From Nakamurella antarctica (GTDB lineage Bacteria > Actinomycetota > Actinomycetes > Mycobacteriales > Nakamurellaceae), in the NCBI RefSeq assembly GCF_003860405.1, contig NZ_CP034170.1:1-64000 (forward strand): 64,000 bases of DNA, in the 5' to 3' direction. The first letter of the stretch is position 1. The number at the start of each line of letters is the position of its first letter. A program made the position numbers and the translations under genes. Under the pieces are notes generated by a model. The model was not told the origin of the DNA. It worked only from the letters and a program-made list of their open reading frames with translations, and did not search any database. Shown here piece after piece: positions 12,049-21,771 of the stretch.

Positions 12049-12121
12049 GGGGCCTTAGCTCAATTGGTAGAGCGCCGCTTTTGCAAGGCGGAGGTCAGGA
12101 GTTCGATTCTCCTAGGCTCCA
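12049..12121 (+). tRNA. tRNA-Ala (TGC)
   Basis: The acceptor GGGGCCT pairs with AGGCTCC and includes the G3-U70 wobble pair that identifies alanine tRNAs. The anticodon loop TTTGCAA gives anticodon TGC. The T arm is CAGGAGTTCGATTCTCCTA. CCA is not encoded. Its 3' 15 bases recur at 12220, so it has served as an integration target. Confidence 0.97.
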
Positions 12122-12122
12122 C

Positions 12123-12219: not shown

Positions 12220-12234
12220 TCTCCTAGGCTCCAC
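12220..12234 (+). repeat. Duplicate of the tRNA-Ala 3' end (candidate att site)
   Basis: TCTCCTAGGCTCCAC is an exact copy of 12108-12122, the 3' end of tRNA-Ala plus one base. It lies 112 bases downstream and about 40 bases before an integrase relic whose C-terminus points towards it. That is the layout of an attachment site left by an integrative element. Confidence 0.75.
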
Positions 12235-12269: not shown

Positions 12270-12630
12270 CAGGAGACCGGCCCTGATTCGTCTCCGGTAC
12301 GCAGTGGGTACGCAGCAGTTCGGGCTGCCTCCGCCGCATCGTTCAATTTTTCTGTCACCGGATCAAAGTCGTTGGGGGAAAAGATCTGCTTAGTTCTCCA
12401 GGGTGAGTGCCGCCGACTTGCGGCCCAGCATGGCTAAGACAGCTTTGACATGGGCTCCGGCCTGCATAGCCTAGAGGCGGCTGTGTGCTGCAAGCCGTGC
12501 GGCGTGACGAGCAGAAAATGAGGATCAAGTGCCCTGCAACGCGCGACGGCTTTGGAGTAATGACGCGACCGAAAGGCTGACACCCTCAGTACGTTGCCCT
12601 TTGCTCCAGTGAATGCCCAGCTCTACTGCG
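12270..12630 (-). pseudogene. Tyrosine recombinase (integrase) C-terminal relic
   Basis: Reading the minus strand gives the catalytic half of a phage-type integrase across three frames: FTGAKGNVLRVSAFRS, then HYSKAVARCRALDPHF and TPHGLQHTAAS. Next comes QAGAHVKAVLAMLGRKSA, TLEN-stop-ADLFP, and finally NDFDPVTEKLNDAAEAA. The family motif HDLRHTA reads HGLQHTA, so the arginine is lost. The catalytic tyrosine codon is TAA (12390-12392 on the plus strand, TTA). At least two frameshifts separate the blocks and the N-terminal half is gone. It is clearly dead. Its neighbour is the duplicated tRNA-Ala end, which explains how the element arrived. Confidence 0.85.
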
Positions 12631-12893: not shown

Positions 12894-13282
12894 TCAATGG
12901 ATCGCCCAAGTCGTTAGTCGCGCTTGCGTAGTGGCCTGAGTCGTGCCGCAGGCTGTTCCGTGGGACGCTGGATGGTTTCGACTGGCGGCCCCGCTTCCGC
13001 GTTCCTCATCTGATGATTCCGAGCCGCGATTTTGTCTTGGCCTTGGGCTAGCGCCTTTGCCTCGCGCTAGCTTTCTAGCCAAGCGGGCTTCAAGGACTTC
13101 TTCAGCGTTTCTGATGAAATCAATCGCGCTGCCCGCCTGATATTGCTTCGGAATGTCATCCCTAGTTTCGTTACTTCGATTTCGTCATCGGTCATACCGT
13201 CATGGGCCCTCGCTCGCCATTCCCAGTGTTGAGCGCCATACTCCAGATCGTCGTAAGTCGGTGAGAATTTTGGAGGGTCGCC
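12894..13282 (-). pseudogene. Fragment of an unrecognised gene, frameshifted
   Basis: Directly beside the IS3 relic, one minus-strand frame is open from 13282 to 13067 (YDDLEYGAQHWEWRARAHDG, then MTDDEIEVTKLGMTFRSN, ending AWLES). A second frame continues to 12894 (RDDIPKQYQAGSAIDFIRN, then EEVLEARLARKLARGKG and a low-complexity tail). Both have coding-like composition and overlap, which suggests one gene cut at its 5' end by the insertion sequence and then frameshifted. I do not recognise the family. Confidence 0.35.
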
Positions 13283-13289
13283 CTAGAGT

Positions 13290-13902
13290 TCATAGTCATT
13301 ACCGATCTCAGGCCCGTCTTCTTCGCAAACGCGGAGAAGATGCGTTGCTGACTGCGCAACCGGCCGTCCCGGTTCTCACTGGCCCGATAGCCCAGATCCA
13401 GCAGTTCGTCGGTGATCAGCCGGTACCCGAACTCCCGGTCGTCCTGGTGTACGTACACCGAGGCATTAATCAACTTGGCATCATCCCAGCCCCGTTGCGT
13501 CACAGGATCTTGGCGCCATTTGTAAACGCTTGCTTGGAAAAGCCAAGCACCCGGCAGGTCACCGCGACCGGCACCCGAACGGGTGCATTTGGTGCGGCAG
13601 GTTCAAGGACCAGCGGATACGTCATTTTGGGAAAGTGTCCCTGGACAAATGAGCAACAGCCAGGCGCATCACCTCCGCTTGCTGCTCCAGGAGCCGGATT
13701 CGCTTGCGGGCTTCCCGCAGCTCAGCGGAATCTGTCACTGCTGGCGCGGCCAGGTCGTCGGCGATATCGGCTTTATTCACCCAGTTGTGCGCTGATGCTT
13801 CGGGAATACTGAAGTCCTTCGCAATCTGGTCCACGGGACTGCCCTTTTGCGGGCGAGGGCGACCACATCGTTGCAGAATTTTTCTGGACAGGGTTTTGGC
13901 AT
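13290..13902 (-). mobile_element. IS3-family insertion sequence relic
   Basis: OrfA begins at 13902 (MPKPCPEKFCNDVVALARKR), shifts frame, and continues QIAKDFSIPEASAHNWVNKA to LLEQQAEVMRLAVAHLS. OrfB starts near 13626 (MTYPLVLEPAAPNAPV, VTCRVLGFSKQAF), shifts again at about 13515, and reads KLINASVYVHQDDREFGYRL to RIFSAFAKKTGL. It stops before the DDE integrase core. This is the IS3 OrfA/OrfB layout with at least two frameshifts and a 3' deletion, so transposase activity is lost. No inverted ends are evident. Confidence 0.8.
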
Positions 13903-14095
13903 GAGGTCCATCTTTCCAGCCAGGATTAAATCTTCGCAGGGGCGACGGTCAACCAAACTCTGGGCAGTCCCACATTCAAACACCAGCACTGCTATAGCCA
14001 CACGTTCTCTACCAAAGCCCATCTGACACCCGCAAACTGGACTTCCCACAAACGTTCATTTTACAATCTGCATCAACGACCAGGGTTCAAGCGCC

Positions 14096-14407: not shown

Positions 14408-14914
14408 TTACAGCGTGGAACGGAGCAGCACTGTGACTGTTGCACTAGCAGCTTCACCACGGCCCTCTAGTCCGAGCCCGTCGTGCGATCGAGCCTTCAC
14501 AGAGACCTGCTGACGTCGAACACCCAGCGCGGCTGCCAGGTTGTCGGCCATGTTTTCAACATGCGGTCGCAAACGGGTAGTCCCCAGGGTAACAAAGCTG
14601 TCGAGGTTCACCAGTTCATAACCAGCTCGTCGAACGTATTGCCCAAATTCTCGAACGAAATCGAGGCTCCTCGCGTCTTCAGCGTCTGGATCGTTTTCCG
14701 GATAGTGAGTGCCGAGATCCCCATCCGCGATCGCTCCGGCTAGGGCATCTACGACAGCGTGAGACAGGACATCCCCGTCGCTGTGTGTGTCAAAGCCGGC
14801 TTGCGCGTCCTCGATAACAACTCCTCCAAGACAAAGCACCCTGCCTGGTACTAAGGCGTGAACATCGTGGCCGTGGCCGATTCGGTAGGGACCGACATCA
14901 ATGGGATCTGGCAT
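14408..14914 (-). CDS. IspF-like protein (MECDP synthase fold) with altered motif
   Basis: IspF cyclises CDP-methylerythritol 2-phosphate to methylerythritol cyclodiphosphate with release of CMP. The 168 residues align end to end with IspF. Metal ligands D17 and H19 (GHGHDVHAL) and H52 (HSDGDVLSH), plus H44, are present, and so are GDLGTHYPENDP and GRGEA. However, the usual KATTTEGLGF motif, which places the second metal and the nucleotide, reads KARSHDGLGL (140-149), and IIAQAPK reads TLGTTR. It overlaps the end of the CorA-like gene by 17 bases and lies beside relic mobile DNA, without ispD. It is likely a horizontally acquired paralogue with changed chemistry. A genuine but divergent isoprenoid enzyme is the alternative. 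Confidence 0.85.
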   Translation of the reverse strand: MPDPIDVGPYRIGHGHDVHALVPGRVLCLGGVVIEDAQAGFDTHSDGDVLSHAVVDALAGAIADGDLGTHYPENDPDAEDARSLDFVREFGQYVRRAGYELVNLDSFVTLGTTRLRPHVENMADNLAAALGVRRQQVSVKARSHDGLGLEGRGEAASATVTVLLRSTL

Positions 14915-16325
14915 TCGACAAGCGTGTCACGAATTGCAACGTCAGAGCTAACAACACCGCGAGAATTGGGCCTCCGAGTCCGACCAAAACTGCAGCCACC
15001 GGGGACGAGTGCCTCAGCACGACGGCAACCGTCACCAGCAATCCAATTACGCAGGTGGTTCCAGACCACAGGGTGGGCTTGCCGGCTCGCCCCCAAGTAA
15101 GCACACCGATTGAGGACAGAGAGAGTCCGAACATTAAGGCAAAAAGCTCCAGCAGCGAACCCGAAGACCCCGGGCTGAGTTCTCGAACATTGGTTCCGTA
15201 GACGCCGGCTACCAGAGTCGGTACAAATAGGACAGCAGTGACAGCGGTGAGAACCTTGTTGAGTCGCTCCTGACCCTTCTGGGACTCCGCAGCGGCGTAA
15301 GCTTGCGCCCCTTGACTGACGCTGCTCAACAACTCGAACGCTGAGCGGAGGGACTCACGCGCCTGCCGAAGATCAGCACCCAAGTGCTGCTGCACGTCGT
15401 TAAAGAGGTCTTGGAGCCCAGGTACACCGCCCACTACGGCTGATACCTCCGCGCGTCGAAGATAGAAGCGCTGACTCACGCGGACCCGGTCTAAATACCC
15501 TGCCAGCACGCCGATGTCTCGCTGGAGGGTAGGGAGGTTGATGGTCGAGTAGGCCTGCTGACCTCGCGCTAACTGCGCGAAAAGCTGGGACTCCCACACC
15601 TCTAACTCTGTGGTCCAGGTCCCCAAAAAATAGCGTTCGTGGGCCGAAGCCTCCCTGAACCAATCGAGAAGGCGGGCGTCCACTGTTCGTGAATCATCTA
15701 GCATCATGGCCAGCGATTCGCGTTTGCGGGACGGAATAGCATGGTGTGGCCAACGAACATCTATCGCGTTCCAGTAACCATTCGGTGGGGTCCAAACTAC
15801 GAGAAGGCCGACGTTCCACCGAACGACCCTCGCCCAGCGTGTAGCCGAGATAACCGCCAGAGAACCACCTCTCGTGCTGGGCAGGGTGTTCACGGGCACG
15901 TCTATAAATGAAGCTCCGAGGGCTGCCCACGACTCGGGTGCTTCGGTGTCGCGATTGGAATTTACGGTGACCGCTGCGTAGTCCGGAAGATTCGGCAGTT
16001 CGTCCAAAATGCAGGAAGGAACAAACTGCCGAAGCAGTGCATCAATAGTCGGGAGTCCCGGAGTGCCATCCAGGGCGACCTCGATATGGACCAGATCGAA
16101 CTGTCGACCTCCGTCTGTCAGAAGAGTAGAATCACCTACTACTTCAAAGTTCAAATGTTCTATCAAAATCGGAACGTGATGACCCGGAAAGCGATCCTCC
16201 CACTCAAACAGAGAGGCGAACCAACCCGCGCTCGCCAGCGCGGAGCGCGTGTCAAAAGCTGCTGCTAGGAGAATACTGGGCGACAACCACCGCTCCGGAC
16301 TCCCCGATTGCGTTACCAAGTCCAT
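14898..16325 (-). CDS. CorA-like membrane protein
   Basis: The 475-residue protein has a large soluble N-terminal region (about 1-340) not like classical CorA, then helices ending in a CorA-type pore segment FVPTLVAGVYGTN. The CorA signature GMN is GTN here (Y376-N379). Three further membrane helices follow (about 389-408, 422-437, 442-467), more than the usual two. CorA-family channels move Mg2+ and related ions or act as gated effectors. AGGGCAGGG precedes ATG 16325. It is co-transcribed with the IspF-like gene, whose start it overlaps, and is divergent from the glycosyltransferase 32 bases away. Substrate unknown. Confidence 0.7.
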   Translation of the reverse strand: MDLVTQSGSPERWLSPSILLAAAFDTRSALASAGWFASLFEWEDRFPGHHVPILIEHLNFEVVGDSTLLTDGGRQFDLVHIEVALDGTPGLPTIDALLRQFVPSCILDELPNLPDYAAVTVNSNRDTEAPESWAALGASFIDVPVNTLPSTRGGSLAVISATRWARVVRWNVGLLVVWTPPNGYWNAIDVRWPHHAIPSRKRESLAMMLDDSRTVDARLLDWFREASAHERYFLGTWTTELEVWESQLFAQLARGQQAYSTINLPTLQRDIGVLAGYLDRVRVSQRFYLRRAEVSAVVGGVPGLQDLFNDVQQHLGADLRQARESLRSAFELLSSVSQGAQAYAAAESQKGQERLNKVLTAVTAVLFVPTLVAGVYGTNVRELSPGSSGSLLELFALMFGLSLSSIGVLTWGRAGKPTLWSGTTCVIGLLVTVAVVLRHSSPVAAVLVGLGGPILAVLLALTLQFVTRLSNARSH

Positions 16326-16357
16326 TTGTTGCCCTGCCCTTTACTAGATTGAGCTAC

Positions 16358-17149
16358 ATGGTGACATCGAAAATCGTAGGGACCTGCCAATTTAGTGTGC
16401 TGACTGCCTGCCTTCCCGAACGTTCGGTTTATTTGAACGAAGCGGCCGCGAGTGTAGCCCGCGCGCGCGAGCTTGTTTCCCCAAACGAATTGGAATGGAT
16501 CATCGCAGTCGATGGTCCCGGAGACCTACCTGATGTGACTGCTCAGGCAAGAGTCGTCCGCATAGAAAGGCGCAGCGGGATAAGCGCAGCACGAAACGCG
16601 GCACTCGCATTCGCTCGAGGGGACCTCATAGCTCCGCTCGACGCGGATGACACGTTAGTTGCTGACGGGCTTTTAGAAGCGCAAGAGGCGCTTCTCAACG
16701 ATCACTTAGGTTGGATCGCGTGCAACCGAGTCCTGTTGAGCACCCAGGGAAAGACTGGCCATTGGCACGGTAGGCGGACATGGCAGCCAGGGGGACTCGC
16801 AGAGAGTTGGTCCGCCCCCTTCGCTTTCCACCCGAACTCGATCGTGGTGCGTCGAGACCTCATACTTCGATGCGGAGGTTGGCCTGCTCTTGCGACGAAC
16901 GAAGATCTGTTCCTCGCGATGTTGCTGAGCGAGAGAGCAGCAGGGTTAAGCATCGAGGCCGTGCTGACAAGATACAGGGTATGGGATGGGCAGGAAGTTT
17001 CGTCGCCAAGTTACCCCGCGACAAAGAGGATTGCCTTCCGATTCATCGAAGCTTCCCTCAATTCTATTCGCAGGGAGTTTGACAGGGACCCGGTCACGCA
17101 CCCCAGGCCCGGCGGAGCCTACGGCAAACGCGCAACAGGCACCCGTTGA
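16358..17149 (+). CDS. GT2-family glycosyltransferase
   Basis: This GT-A fold transferase (263 residues) uses a nucleotide sugar. Visible motifs are FSVLTACLPERSVYL at the start, EWIIAVDGPGD, SGISAARNAALAFARGD and the DxD-type metal motif PLDADDTL near residue 90. A C-terminal acceptor region has ATNEDLFLAMLLSERAAG. I choose ATG 16358 over TTG 16349. The stop overlaps the start of the phosphatase gene. Codons such as AGA, ATA and CTA are commoner than in the core genes, which suggests transfer. Acceptor unknown; no polysaccharide locus is near. Confidence 0.85.
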   Translation: MVTSKIVGTCQFSVLTACLPERSVYLNEAAASVARARELVSPNELEWIIAVDGPGDLPDVTAQARVVRIERRSGISAARNAALAFARGDLIAPLDADDTLVADGLLEAQEALLNDHLGWIACNRVLLSTQGKTGHWHGRRTWQPGGLAESWSAPFAFHPNSIVVRRDLILRCGGWPALATNEDLFLAMLLSERAAGLSIEAVLTRYRVWDGQEVSSPSYPATKRIAFRFIEASLNSIRREFDRDPVTHPRPGGAYGKRATGTR

Positions 17150-17988
17150 TAAAACGAGCCGTCCTCATCGGAGATACTGGTGGCAACGCCACTGTTCTTC
17201 GAGAATGCCTTGAAGAGGCGGGCGTCGTTTCGGGCAAGGTTCCTGAAAGTCTCATGGTCGTACACGTCGGCGACCTTATCCGGTGCAGTGAGCAGTTCCG
17301 TTTGGGGAACGCGCATTCTGTCGAAGTTATAGTTGGTCTACTTCGCGACAATCCGATCAACTTCGTGCAACTGCTAGGCAACCACGAGTCGGCTGCGCTT
17401 GGTGGGCCTAGACGCAAAGGTTGGGATGTCGAAGCAAGTCTCACTCAGGACACATGTTCTTCGTTGATTGCGCTCTGGAAATCGGGGGCTATTCGCCTCG
17501 CATGCGCCTTGGATACCGTCGACCTAGGATCTGTCCTAGTTAGTCACGCGGGGTTGACGCGCGCAAGATGGCTAGACATAGGGCAACCCGCGAATGCGGC
17601 CAAGGCAGCCGCAGCTGTCAACCGCGACATGCAGCTTCCCATCCGTGACTGGGCTCGACCGGGACGGCTTGTCGGCGATATGGACGCCGCCGCCGACACA
17701 ACCTGGGCAGAAGTCAATCTGGAGCTATACCAGCCCTGGCTTCTAAACGGCGACGCGCCATTCAGCCAAGTTCATGGCCACTCGTCACCTTTCAATTTCC
17801 AGCAGGACAGCTGGTGGCCTGATGCTACCTCACTCGTCCGAGCAGCAACGCGCGTGGACAAGCGCATCCGACGCACGGTTACTTTGCTGACGCCATCGAT
17901 CAAAGCCATCGCGATCGATTGGAATTTAGGTGATGTCCCGATCGATGACGTTCCATCCTGGCCGTTACTGCAGCTTGATTGTCATTAG
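17146..17988 (+). CDS. Metallophosphatase of the calcineurin-like (PPP-type) superfamily
   Basis: The 280-residue protein has the ordered motifs of serine/threonine-phosphatase-like metallophosphoesterases: IGDTGGNATVL (residues 8-18), HVGDLIR, LLGNHESAAL, VSHAGLTRARW and QVHGHSSPF. The first motif is normally GDxHG, and the metal-binding histidine is replaced by glycine (GDTGG), so metal use may differ. The start is TTG 17146, overlapping the GT2 stop (TTGA), so translation is probably coupled. The substrate could be a phosphoprotein, nucleotide or signalling molecule. The pairing with a glycosyltransferase is unexplained. Confidence 0.8.
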   Translation: MIKRAVLIGDTGGNATVLRECLEEAGVVSGKVPESLMVVHVGDLIRCSEQFRLGNAHSVEVIVGLLRDNPINFVQLLGNHESAALGGPRRKGWDVEASLTQDTCSSLIALWKSGAIRLACALDTVDLGSVLVSHAGLTRARWLDIGQPANAAKAAAAVNRDMQLPIRDWARPGRLVGDMDAAADTTWAEVNLELYQPWLLNGDAPFSQVHGHSSPFNFQQDSWWPDATSLVRAATRVDKRIRRTVTLLTPSIKAIAIDWNLGDVPIDDVPSWPLLQLDCH

Positions 17989-18238: not shown

Positions 18239-18837
18239 TCAGGCGAGGTTCGGTGGGTTATAAAGGCGGTCTAGAGCGGCGGCGATCAGTGCCCGGTGGG
18301 GTGCGTGTCCGGAGAGCCGTAGGTGCACGCTTCGGGTTCGTTTGGCGATGTATCCGGCAATCGAGAACAGCAGCAGGCGTAGTCGTTTGGGTTCCCACCC
18401 GCGGGACGCACTGTCTGTGAGGGCCAGCATTTGCGTCCAGGCGGCGATATCGGTGGCTAACGCCACGATGGCGAGCCAGATTTGGTTTTGGTTGAATCCG
18501 TGTAGCGGCAGGTTCCGGAGACCGGTGGGGGTACCGCTCGGCCCTTTGGGGCTGGGGAAGCTTTCGTGGCCCGGATGCGGTCTTCGCAGCGGGCACGGCG
18601 GCGGTGGTGTAGTTCCAGGTCCGCTAGTTGCCCACGGGCGGTGTTGGTGGCGAACGCGGTGAGCCGGTTTCCGTCGATGTCGGTGAACGCAGTTGCGCCC
18701 CTGTCCAGCCCCTGTGCCGGGGCGACGCAGAGTGGGCTGATGCGGCCTCCTGGCCGCCTGCGGGAACTGGGGCCCAGTCTTGATAGGGAATGTGTTTCGA
18801 GGCCCCTTGTCCTAGTGTCTGAACCACGACGACCCAT
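18239..18837 (-). mobile_element. IS1380-family transposase relic
   Basis: The minus strand gives the C-terminal third of an IS1380-type transposase in two frames: TDIDGNRLTAFATNTARGQL and LADLELHHRRRARCEDRIR, a frameshift, then QIWLAIVALATDIAAWTQML and GWEPKRLRLLLFSIAGYIAK. The DDE-bearing N-terminal part is missing. It marks a third insertion event in this accessory stretch. Confidence 0.8.
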
Positions 18838-20100: not shown

Positions 20101-20246
20101 CGCAGTTGCGAGAAGTCGGCGTCGATGCCCGCGTAGTCAATGTCAATCGTGAGGAAACATCGGTCGATGAGGCAGATGGCGGATCACGGATGCCCAGCGC
20201 TCTTCCGGTAAGAAAAAGGGCCCTGTCCCTACGCCATACTTTGCTC

Positions 20247-20837
20247 ATGGCTTTTCGGATTGTGCAGCTTGTTCTGTCGTGCGTAGTTCTCGGTGTCGGC
20301 GTAGCGCTCCTCTTGGCCCCAGCTCTGGGTTCTGACGGATACTCCACTCTCATCAACGGGCTATCCCTGACCACGGGTTTGCCCTTTGCAGTTATCAATG
20401 TCGTTGTAGGTCTCGTTCTGGTTTTGCTCGCCTGGGCAAAGGGTCGTCGGCCGGCGCTGGGTACCGTTGTGCAGCCGCTGTTGACTGGATACACGGTGAC
20501 TGTTCTACTGACCGTGCTTGACCAGCCAACAACTCTGCTTGGCAGAGCAGCAATGGTCTTGGTCGCCTTCGTGGTGGTGAGCGTTGGTGTTGCTGGCTAC
20601 CTAGGCAGCAACACGGGTGTCGGCCCTTCCGAGGCGGTATCCCTTGCTTGGGATCCGCCGATACCTTTTCGCTGGAGCTACAGCATTTTCCAAGCGGCCT
20701 GTGCGGGAATTGGTTGGTCATTCGGCGCCGCAGTCGGTGCAGGAACACTTCTCGTCATCGTTGCAATGGGCCCTGTTGTCGATCTGTTGGGGAGGAAGAT
20801 TCACGTTTTCAGTATTCGACCGCTGCCCGCTAGCTGA
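20247..20837 (+). CDS. YczE/YitT-family membrane protein
   Basis: This integral membrane protein of about 196 residues has five or six helices and follows the YczE pattern: MAFRIVQLVLSCVVLGVGVA, LNGLS-type GLSLTTGLPFAVINVVVGLV, RPALGTVVQPLLTGYTV, GSNTGVGPSEAVS and VGAGTLLVIVAMGPVVDLL. I start at ATG 20247. Longer in-frame starts at 20106 or 20190 would put a charged leader before the first helix. No strong ribosome site is seen. Function unknown; the family may act as small-molecule exporters. Confidence 0.8.
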   Translation: MAFRIVQLVLSCVVLGVGVALLLAPALGSDGYSTLINGLSLTTGLPFAVINVVVGLVLVLLAWAKGRRPALGTVVQPLLTGYTVTVLLTVLDQPTTLLGRAAMVLVAFVVVSVGVAGYLGSNTGVGPSEAVSLAWDPPIPFRWSYSIFQAACAGIGWSFGAAVGAGTLLVIVAMGPVVDLLGRKIHVFSIRPLPAS

Positions 20838-21000: not shown

Positions 21001-21771
21001 TTAGGTGGGAAACTGCGAAATGAGGGTCCGGGCAGTCCACCTCTCCGGCCAAGGCACGCCTGCGAACGTCCCTGCTAATGGGGACTTCGCACGGCCTACC
21101 CCGCCGAACGATGTCCGCATTGAGTAACCGTGGGCACCCCGCTCGACACGGATCGAGCCGTCGACTACCGACAGCGCCAACGGGTCCATCTCTCTGAGAA
21201 GGTCCGCGGAGCCGTCATCGCACGCGTCGCAATCACAGTGAGGCAACCGCGTCAACGCCACGGCCGGTTTGCCTGCTGCGATCGTGACCGAAACCGGCCG
21301 TTCGTCGGTCTCAGGTGTGTGAATGACAAAGACCAGCGCAACCGCACCGCTGGCGCGGAATTGCAAGACGAGGCAGCGACCGCCTAATGGGAGCGGCGGA
21401 ACGCCCAGGAGGACGGGCACCAGATTTGCCCAGCCGCGGTCGAGGAAGAGCTTCGCCCATGCCCGACCGCGGGCTTGGACTAGTAGATACCTTGCAGAAT
21501 CTTCGCCCCGACTGTATTGCCCTTCCAGCGGCCAAGCGCCCCATCTTCGCGGATTCGCGCACTCGGGCAGTTGTGGCTCATCGGCCGCATCAACGTCGCG
21601 CAGTAAGTCGCAGATCTCTGGCGAAATCAACCCCCGATGTTCCCCGATCCCATCAGGACGCCACTCTAGGACATGTTCGTTGAAGTCCTCCCACCATGGA
21701 ATGGCGGCGCCATGAATCCTCGCCTTGGACTGTGGAGCGGAAAATGCGGCCCAGGTTCCCCCGGTCAGCAC
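21001..21771 (-). CDS. Hypothetical protein with CDCDACD motif (DUF6226-like)
   Basis: The 256-residue soluble protein is Trp- and Pro-rich at the N-terminus. Its central cysteine cluster LPHCDCDACDDGSADLL resembles actinobacterial DUF6226 proteins (PxCGCDACDxGS). The cysteine/aspartate set could bind a metal. The start is uncertain: the open frame begins at GTG 21771, and an internal start is possible. It stands alone, convergent with the YczE-like gene. Function unknown. Confidence 0.55.
   Translation of the reverse strand: MLTGGTWAAFSAPQSKARIHGAAIPWWEDFNEHVLEWRPDGIGEHRGLISPEICDLLRDVDAADEPQLPECANPRRWGAWPLEGQYSRGEDSARYLLVQARGRAWAKLFLDRGWANLVPVLLGVPPLPLGGRCLVLQFRASGAVALVFVIHTPETDERPVSVTIAAGKPAVALTRLPHCDCDACDDGSADLLREMDPLALSVVDGSIRVERGAHGYSMRTSFGGVGRAKSPLAGTFAGVPWPERWTARTLISQFPT

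Follow-up and report, generated by a model that had tools for sequence, protein, structure and literature searches.

In the soil bacterium Nakamurella antarctica, four unbroken open reading frames (ORFs) lie in two divergent pairs between positions 14408 and 17988 of the window analyzed here, i.e., the first 64 kb (G+C content, 61.3%) of its single 3,377,955-bp contig. One pair encodes a CorA-like membrane protein and a relative of IspF, the 2-C-methyl-D-erythritol 2,4-cyclodiphosphate (MEcPP) synthase, and the 3' end of the CorA-like gene overlaps the start of the IspF-like gene by 17 nucleotides. The other pair encodes a GT2-type glycosyltransferase and a phosphatase, in which the stop codon of the former and the TTG start codon of the latter share the 4 nucleotides TTGA. 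Thus, the four intact genes, their placement, the overlap, and the TTGA junction that a first-pass annotation had described are all present in the ORF list (coordinates are collected in the table below). The spacing of 23 nucleotides between the two pairs presupposes that the GT2 gene starts at TTG 16349; an alternative start is ATG 16358. A possible ribosome-binding site, AGGGCAGGG, was read by eye 5' of the CorA-like ATG. A promoter scan returned 1 site (1.5 expected), and a terminator scan returned 6 (3.6 expected).

The IspF-like protein passes the cutoffs of both the Pfam family (PF02542, 170.6 bits; cutoff, 26.7) and the equivalog model (TIGR00151, 155.2 bits; cutoff, 116.45). A second ispF linked to ispD was looked for in the genome and was found at 2.71 Mb, where it makes up the latter half of a gene for an IspDF fusion, in the neighborhood of CarD, RadA, and DisA (ORFs read by eye). 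Because this IspD-fused IspF is encoded separately in the same genome, the window copy is an accessory paralog, as the first-pass annotation had taken it to be. An IspF match exists in 15 of the 17 genus genomes, with two matches in N. antarctica alone, and in 386 of the 394 class genomes, with two matches in 4 (this genome included). The identity of the window protein to the class matches listed does not exceed 43%, and that to the IspDF of its own genome is 38%; the best matches within plasmid and phage records are 47% and 43% identical, respectively. Structurally characterized IspFs in the PDB matched it with up to 124 bits, and a viral-contig scan with the protein found nothing. In a tree of 56 rows, its end branch measures 3.87 changes per column versus a median of 0.44. 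The 44 rows of its own class form a group (support, 100/99) that excludes it, and it is placed beside 11 sequences of other classes and phyla. As a separate observation on the isoprenoid genes, the IspD half of IspDF scores 67 bits against a cutoff of 181.3, and a separate IspD, near purine genes by eye, scores 161 bits, also below the cutoff (IspD places: G000:C1:2516070-2516747 [L183:6023-6772] and L029:9817-11181); the IspD function may have moved.

In alignment with Escherichia coli IspF, residues D8, H10, and H42, which we take to be the zinc ligands, are kept as D17, H19, and H52; D46 and D56 are kept as D56 and D66, and the HSDxD motif is also kept. T133 and E135 are conservatively replaced by S143 and D145. 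Differences are found at positions of the presumed cytidine/nucleotide pocket, which we take to be lined by A100, P103, K104, and T132 to E135: A100 corresponds to L110, P103 to T113, K104 to R114, T132 to R142, and T134 to H144. P103 is a proline in 45 of 45 relatives and in all 10 other alignment rows (one row is common to both sets). The alignment thus agrees with the earlier claim that the metal ligands are retained and that KARSHD (residues 140 to 145) stands in place of KATTTE. This replacement is less radical than claimed, because a Cupriavidus IspF has KAKTNE and D likewise stands in place of E in the native IspDF. The simplest reading of these residues is that metal and diphosphate chemistry would be kept and the nucleotide pocket would be changed. 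A scan of 84,980 species genomes for an IspF with H in KAxxH returned one match (L106), which was rejected since its ORFs, inspected by eye, were not readable as IspF. The pattern used is restrictive in that it demands KA and GRGE, and its skeleton, KAxxx[DE]...GRGE, occurs in 0 of the 45 comparison IspFs; the scan therefore indicates no more than that motifs closely related to the window one are uncommon.

The CorA-like protein matches PF01544 over residues 223 to 411 (47.6 bits; cutoff, 27), whereas its score against the corA equivalog model, 24.4 bits, is far below the cutoff of 200.75. It has YGTN where 45 of 45 comparison rows have YGMN (L014 read from its sequence), and the tail after this motif comprises 96 residues versus 37 in 43 of the 45 comparison proteins and 46 in L051. 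Hydrophobic regions at approximately residues 355 to 376, 391 to 412, and 419 to 461 go beyond the two-helix pattern of CorA, and the last is split into two helices in a low-confidence model. The GTN-for-GMN replacement and the extra helices noted in the first-pass annotation are therefore in keeping with the predicted protein. No domain was recognized in its N-terminal half. The model is confident for a helical stalk (about residues 212 to 350) but poor overall, with a mean predicted local distance difference test score (pLDDT) of 58 and a predicted template modeling score of 0.37, and its quality does not allow a fold to be assigned; among the fold matches, Thermotoga CorA ranks first (E value, 0.0022), with none at or below 0.001.

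No orthologue of the CorA-like protein was found in 101 relatives, 394 class genomes, and 328 order genomes (E value, 1e-6; overlapping sets), nor in plasmids, genome_contigs, viral contigs, and PDB sequences. Two matches in phages (E values, 0.08 and 0.7) yielded no orthologue. Other matches listed for the relatives and class genomes are partial and mostly lie on the CorA C-terminal part; one candidate, L005, matching query residues 345 to 466, was discarded as an MFS transporter by eye. Two stronger CorA matches (204.9 and 155.1 bits) exist elsewhere in the genome, so the window protein is probably not the housekeeping transporter.

The codon use of the four genes looks foreign. Their G+C contents at third codon positions (GC3) are 0.533 (IspF-like), 0.616 (CorA-like), 0.607 (GT2), and 0.584 (phosphatase), compared with a median of 0.718, and all four are within the six lowest of 70 coding-like ORFs (74 before filtering) taken from the window plus two further stretches of this genome. 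The other two of the six are ORF 20106-20837 and one gene in L183. By our own arithmetic, the chance that four given genes would rank together among the six lowest of 70 is 15 in 916,895, a rough figure given that the ORF list follows a simple rule and neighboring genes are not independent.

The surroundings are consistent with the claim that the genes sit among decayed mobile DNA: the right side has a truncated DDE transposase, and the left side has weak transposase pieces that score below their cutoffs. Farther left lies a tRNA-Ala gene, the 3' end of which recurs as a perfect 15-bp copy 112 bp downstream of the tRNA. With up to 2 mismatches allowed, 0.06 matches to this tRNA end were expected in the window, and at least 2 matches occurred in 1 of 100 shuffles; the repeat hints at an integrative element. 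A decayed piece at 12437-12622 resembles a tyrosine recombinase by eye and had no Pfam or phage match. Past the tRNA-Ala gene, no gene order in common with the window was seen in four relatives (about 15 kb) or in a fifth (less than 1 kb); judging by the four, the spot seems variable. The stretch looks mobile, and the genes look like co-acquired cargo. To the right of the remnants, ORF 20106-20837 is intact looking and membrane protein like (GC3, 0.570; no Pfam match over 20247-20834) and possibly belongs to the same foreign block; an ORF at 21001-21771 has a DUF6226 domain (112 bits).

Table. Features of the Nakamurella antarctica window around the two divergent gene pairs (positions are those of the window)
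Feature	Position	Strand	Evidence or remark
IspF-like protein, 168 residues	14408-14914	-	Accessory MEcPP synthase paralog; PF02542, TIGR00151
CorA-like membrane protein, 475 residues	14898-16325	-	PF01544; YGTN; about four hydrophobic C-terminal segments
GT2-type glycosyltransferase, 266 residues	16349-17149	+	PF00535; DADD motif
PPP-like metallophosphoesterase (predicted), 280 residues	17146-17988	+	Motifs and Foldseek search of a partial model
Intergenic gap of 23 nucleotides between the divergent pairs	16326-16348		Read by eye
Truncated DDE transposase remnant	18242-18811	-	PF13701, 63.8 bits (cutoff, 34.7), profile positions 344-431 of 435
Weak transposase remnants, left side	13195-13948	-	HTH_21, 19.2 bits; HTH_Tnp_1, 15.1 bits; both below cutoff
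tRNA-Ala(TGC) gene, possible integration site	12049-12122	+	ARAGORN, Rfam
Perfect repeat (15 bp) of the tRNA-Ala 3' end	12220-12234	+	Repeat search

The GT2 protein matches PF00535 with 46.9 bits (cutoff, 23.3), has a DXD motif (DADD, read by eye), and lacks a hydrophobic segment. Its low-score matches to the TuaG (24.8 bits) and MftF (37.7 bits) models are far below the cutoffs, and two weak PHROG matches to glycosyltransferases (19.0 and 17.3 bits) were obtained; the PHROG search gave no match for the IspF-like protein, the CorA-like protein, or the phosphatase. Relatives with 25 to 34% identity are found in 20 actinobacterial plasmid records and were not found in phages. In five of the eight plasmid contexts viewed, the GT2 relative directly follows an annotated GntR gene, and no IspF or CorA gene is annotated in any of the eight. 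This recurrent GntR-then-GT2 pair (L072, L073, L074, L188, and L189), which in several plasmids is near transfer or replication genes, is a side observation, on which a narrow literature search returned nothing. A metallophosphoesterase beside the GT2 gene of a Miltoncostaea plasmid showed no significant match to the window phosphatase and is unrelated to it.

The window phosphatase has no Pfam or NCBIfam match up to an E value of 1. The full motif set of PPP phosphoesterases is GDxHG, GDxxDRG, and GNHE. In the window protein, GNHE is present together with HAG and GH, and the first two motifs are replaced by GDTGG and GDLIRCS. GDxGG stands for GDxHG in all four aligned relatives as well, and in the window protein the second motif lacks a DRG-type ending. 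A Foldseek search with a partial model (pLDDT, 67; most of residues 175 to 272 below 50) gave 53 matches with E values of 0.001 or less, among whose leaders are PP5, lambda phosphatase, and ApaH, with TM-scores near 0.3 to 0.4. Judged by its predicted fold and part of its motifs, the protein is probably PPP like. The family occurs in 23 others of the 328 order genomes and 3 others of the 394 class genomes (25 different genomes), and homologues with 33 to 37% identity exist in 6 of the 16 other genus genomes. A relative with 30% identity is encoded on a viral contig (L187:1960-2841), two genes from an ORF that, by eye, resembles a CCA-adding nucleotidyltransferase. In three phosphatase neighborhoods (L026, L167, and L168), an adjacent ORF looks by eye like a nucleotidyltransferase with sensor domains (DUF294 like).

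Of the 25 phosphatase neighborhoods, 22 were examined (G053, G541, and G630 were left out), and in none of these 22 (4 to 20 kb; E value, 0.001) was there a match to the IspF-like, CorA-like, or GT2 protein. Within these neighborhoods, which represent the phosphatase family, the four-gene cassette proposed in the first-pass annotation did not recur, an outcome that the annotation itself had counted against its proposal.

We tentatively favor the explanation that the block is acquired cargo made up of two coupled pairs, in which an IspF-like enzyme with a changed substrate works with the CorA-like protein at the membrane. The horizontally acquired block would consist of two translationally coupled gene pairs that are read apart. 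The IspF-like protein would still catalyze an IspF-type reaction, in which a phosphate, assisted by zinc, attacks a nucleotidyl diphosphate, so that a cyclic diphosphate is closed and a nucleoside monophosphate is released, and the nucleotide of its substrate may be altered or less strictly recognized. At the membrane, the co-translated CorA-like protein would handle the product, either by passing it or by sensing it; we infer this joint function from the overlap of the two genes in one genome. The GT2/phosphatase pair, which may be independent of the CorA-like/IspF-like pair, would have been acquired along with it as a unit of its own, the target of which would be a glycan or a phosphorylated metabolite. 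Should the coupling be real, the diverged IspF and the CorA-like protein would suggest that the cyclization chemistry has been recruited for another role. The titles and abstract openings in the literature searched describe no IspF/CorA-like pair.

Several points weigh against this explanation. (i) No second genome with a CorA-IspF pair was seen; hence, the coupling rests on one locus, and DNA shuffling can bring genes into overlap by chance. (ii) The changes at the K104 and E135 positions say little, since the native IspDF has the same residues there (R and D, respectively), and the extreme divergence of the IspF-like protein could mean relaxed selection rather than a new substrate. The tree program also gave a long-branch warning. 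(iii) Because the model of the CorA-like protein is poor, no ligand site can be named. (iv) In view of its homologues in the genus, the phosphatase need not be foreign to it.

In a possible alternative, which is only slightly less probable, mobile DNA happened to bring two unrelated pairs together as unlinked cargo; the IspF-like protein would then be a spare MEcPP synthase undergoing drift, and the CorA-like protein would be an ion channel with no connection to it. The very long IspF branch agrees with it, as do the absence of the other three proteins from the 22 phosphatase neighborhoods and that of IspF and CorA genes from the eight plasmid contexts, where GntR precedes GT2 in five and the sole metallophosphoesterase is unrelated to that of the window. 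However, the four ORFs are intact amid decayed DNA, have a low GC3 in common, and are joined by overlaps, all of which speaks against this alternative.

A role in envelope or glycan modification, in which the GT2 protein adds a sugar, the phosphatase frees a phosphate, and the other pair provides a lipid-carrier precursor or ions, appears unlikely. Although the low-score matches of the GT2 protein are to polysaccharide and mycofactocin glycosyltransferases (TuaG and MftF, respectively), it has no hydrophobic segment, no flippase, polymerase, or nucleotide-sugar gene was seen beside the cassette in the ORF list inspected by eye, and several of its plasmid relatives have genes for transfer, replication, repair, or regulators in their vicinity.

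Slightly more doubtful still is a defense effector, in which infection would prompt the IspF-like protein to make a cyclic diphosphate, the CorA-like protein would open and harm the membrane, and the phosphatase would clear the signal. As described in two reports, the SAM-AMP system of type III CRISPR pairs a CorA effector with the NrN phosphodiesterase (PMC10600005 and PMC11229360); given this pairing, the parallel with signal-gated defense systems drawn in the first-pass annotation was reasonable, and here, too, an enzyme, a CorA-like protein, and a phosphoesterase share one mobile-looking block. The CorA-like protein has two PADLOC CorA matches, which are weak (17.9 and 14.3 bits) and cover the membrane part only, whereas seven other window proteins, the only seven tried, had none. 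Cas10 gave 0 matches in the genome with one model (PF22335; E value, 0.001), for which the control matched in 5 of 14 genomes. No NrN, DEDD, or SAM-AMP lyase gene is next to the corA-like gene, the neighbors of which are the IspF-like and GT2 genes; moreover, the phosphatase family is found apart from the others, and no sensor component was identified. Thus, the accessory IspF, its overlap with the CorA-like gene, and the mobile-looking stretch stand from the earlier reading, while its link to defense is not supported. The defense parallel is an analogy of layout, which our data neither support nor exclude. No likelier than such an effector is a bolder form of the favored explanation, in which an IspF with a rebuilt pocket makes a new cyclic diphosphate to which the co-translated CorA-type channel, with its additional membrane helices, responds, giving a signaling device and possibly a mobile cargo for defense or competition.

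Least probable is pathway support or metabolite relief, in which the additional IspF would increase MEcPP, and the CorA-like protein would export it or balance its charge, e.g., under oxidative stress, because the pocket positions of the IspF-like protein differ from both IspF types compared and CorA-type proteins, as far as we know, carry cations. In its favor are the weak IspD part of the native IspDF (67 bits), although a separate IspD exists, and the reported MEcPP efflux from engineered E. coli, for which preliminary data raised the suspicion of the fsr pump (PMC3487848).

Compared with known systems, the IspF-like protein is like IspF in passing the equivalog cutoff and in keeping the zinc ligands and the conserved acidic residues, whereas no ispD or ispE is beside it in the ORF list and the positions of A100, P103, T132, and T134 are altered. 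With the CorA magnesium channel, the CorA-like protein has in common the Pfam CorA domain, a long predicted helical stalk, and a Y-G-x-N motif; it differs by GTN instead of GMN, the 96-residue tail, the extra hydrophobic segments, and an unrecognized N-terminal half. The type III CRISPR CorA/NrN system likewise has a CorA-type membrane protein near an enzyme of phosphate chemistry and a phosphoesterase, but here there is no Cas10 match, the phosphoesterase is PPP like and encoded on the other strand, and the enzyme is an IspF. Although no GntR gene was seen beside the window GT2 gene, which is joined to a phosphatase gene instead, the GntR-GT2 pair of actinobacterial plasmids has a GT2 protein of similar length and 25 to 34% identity. 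Finally, the window phosphatase differs from the PPP phosphoesterases ApaH, lambda phosphatase, and PP5 in having no Pfam match, GDxGG instead of GDxHG, and no DRG-type end, while it shares with them several motifs and the predicted fold.

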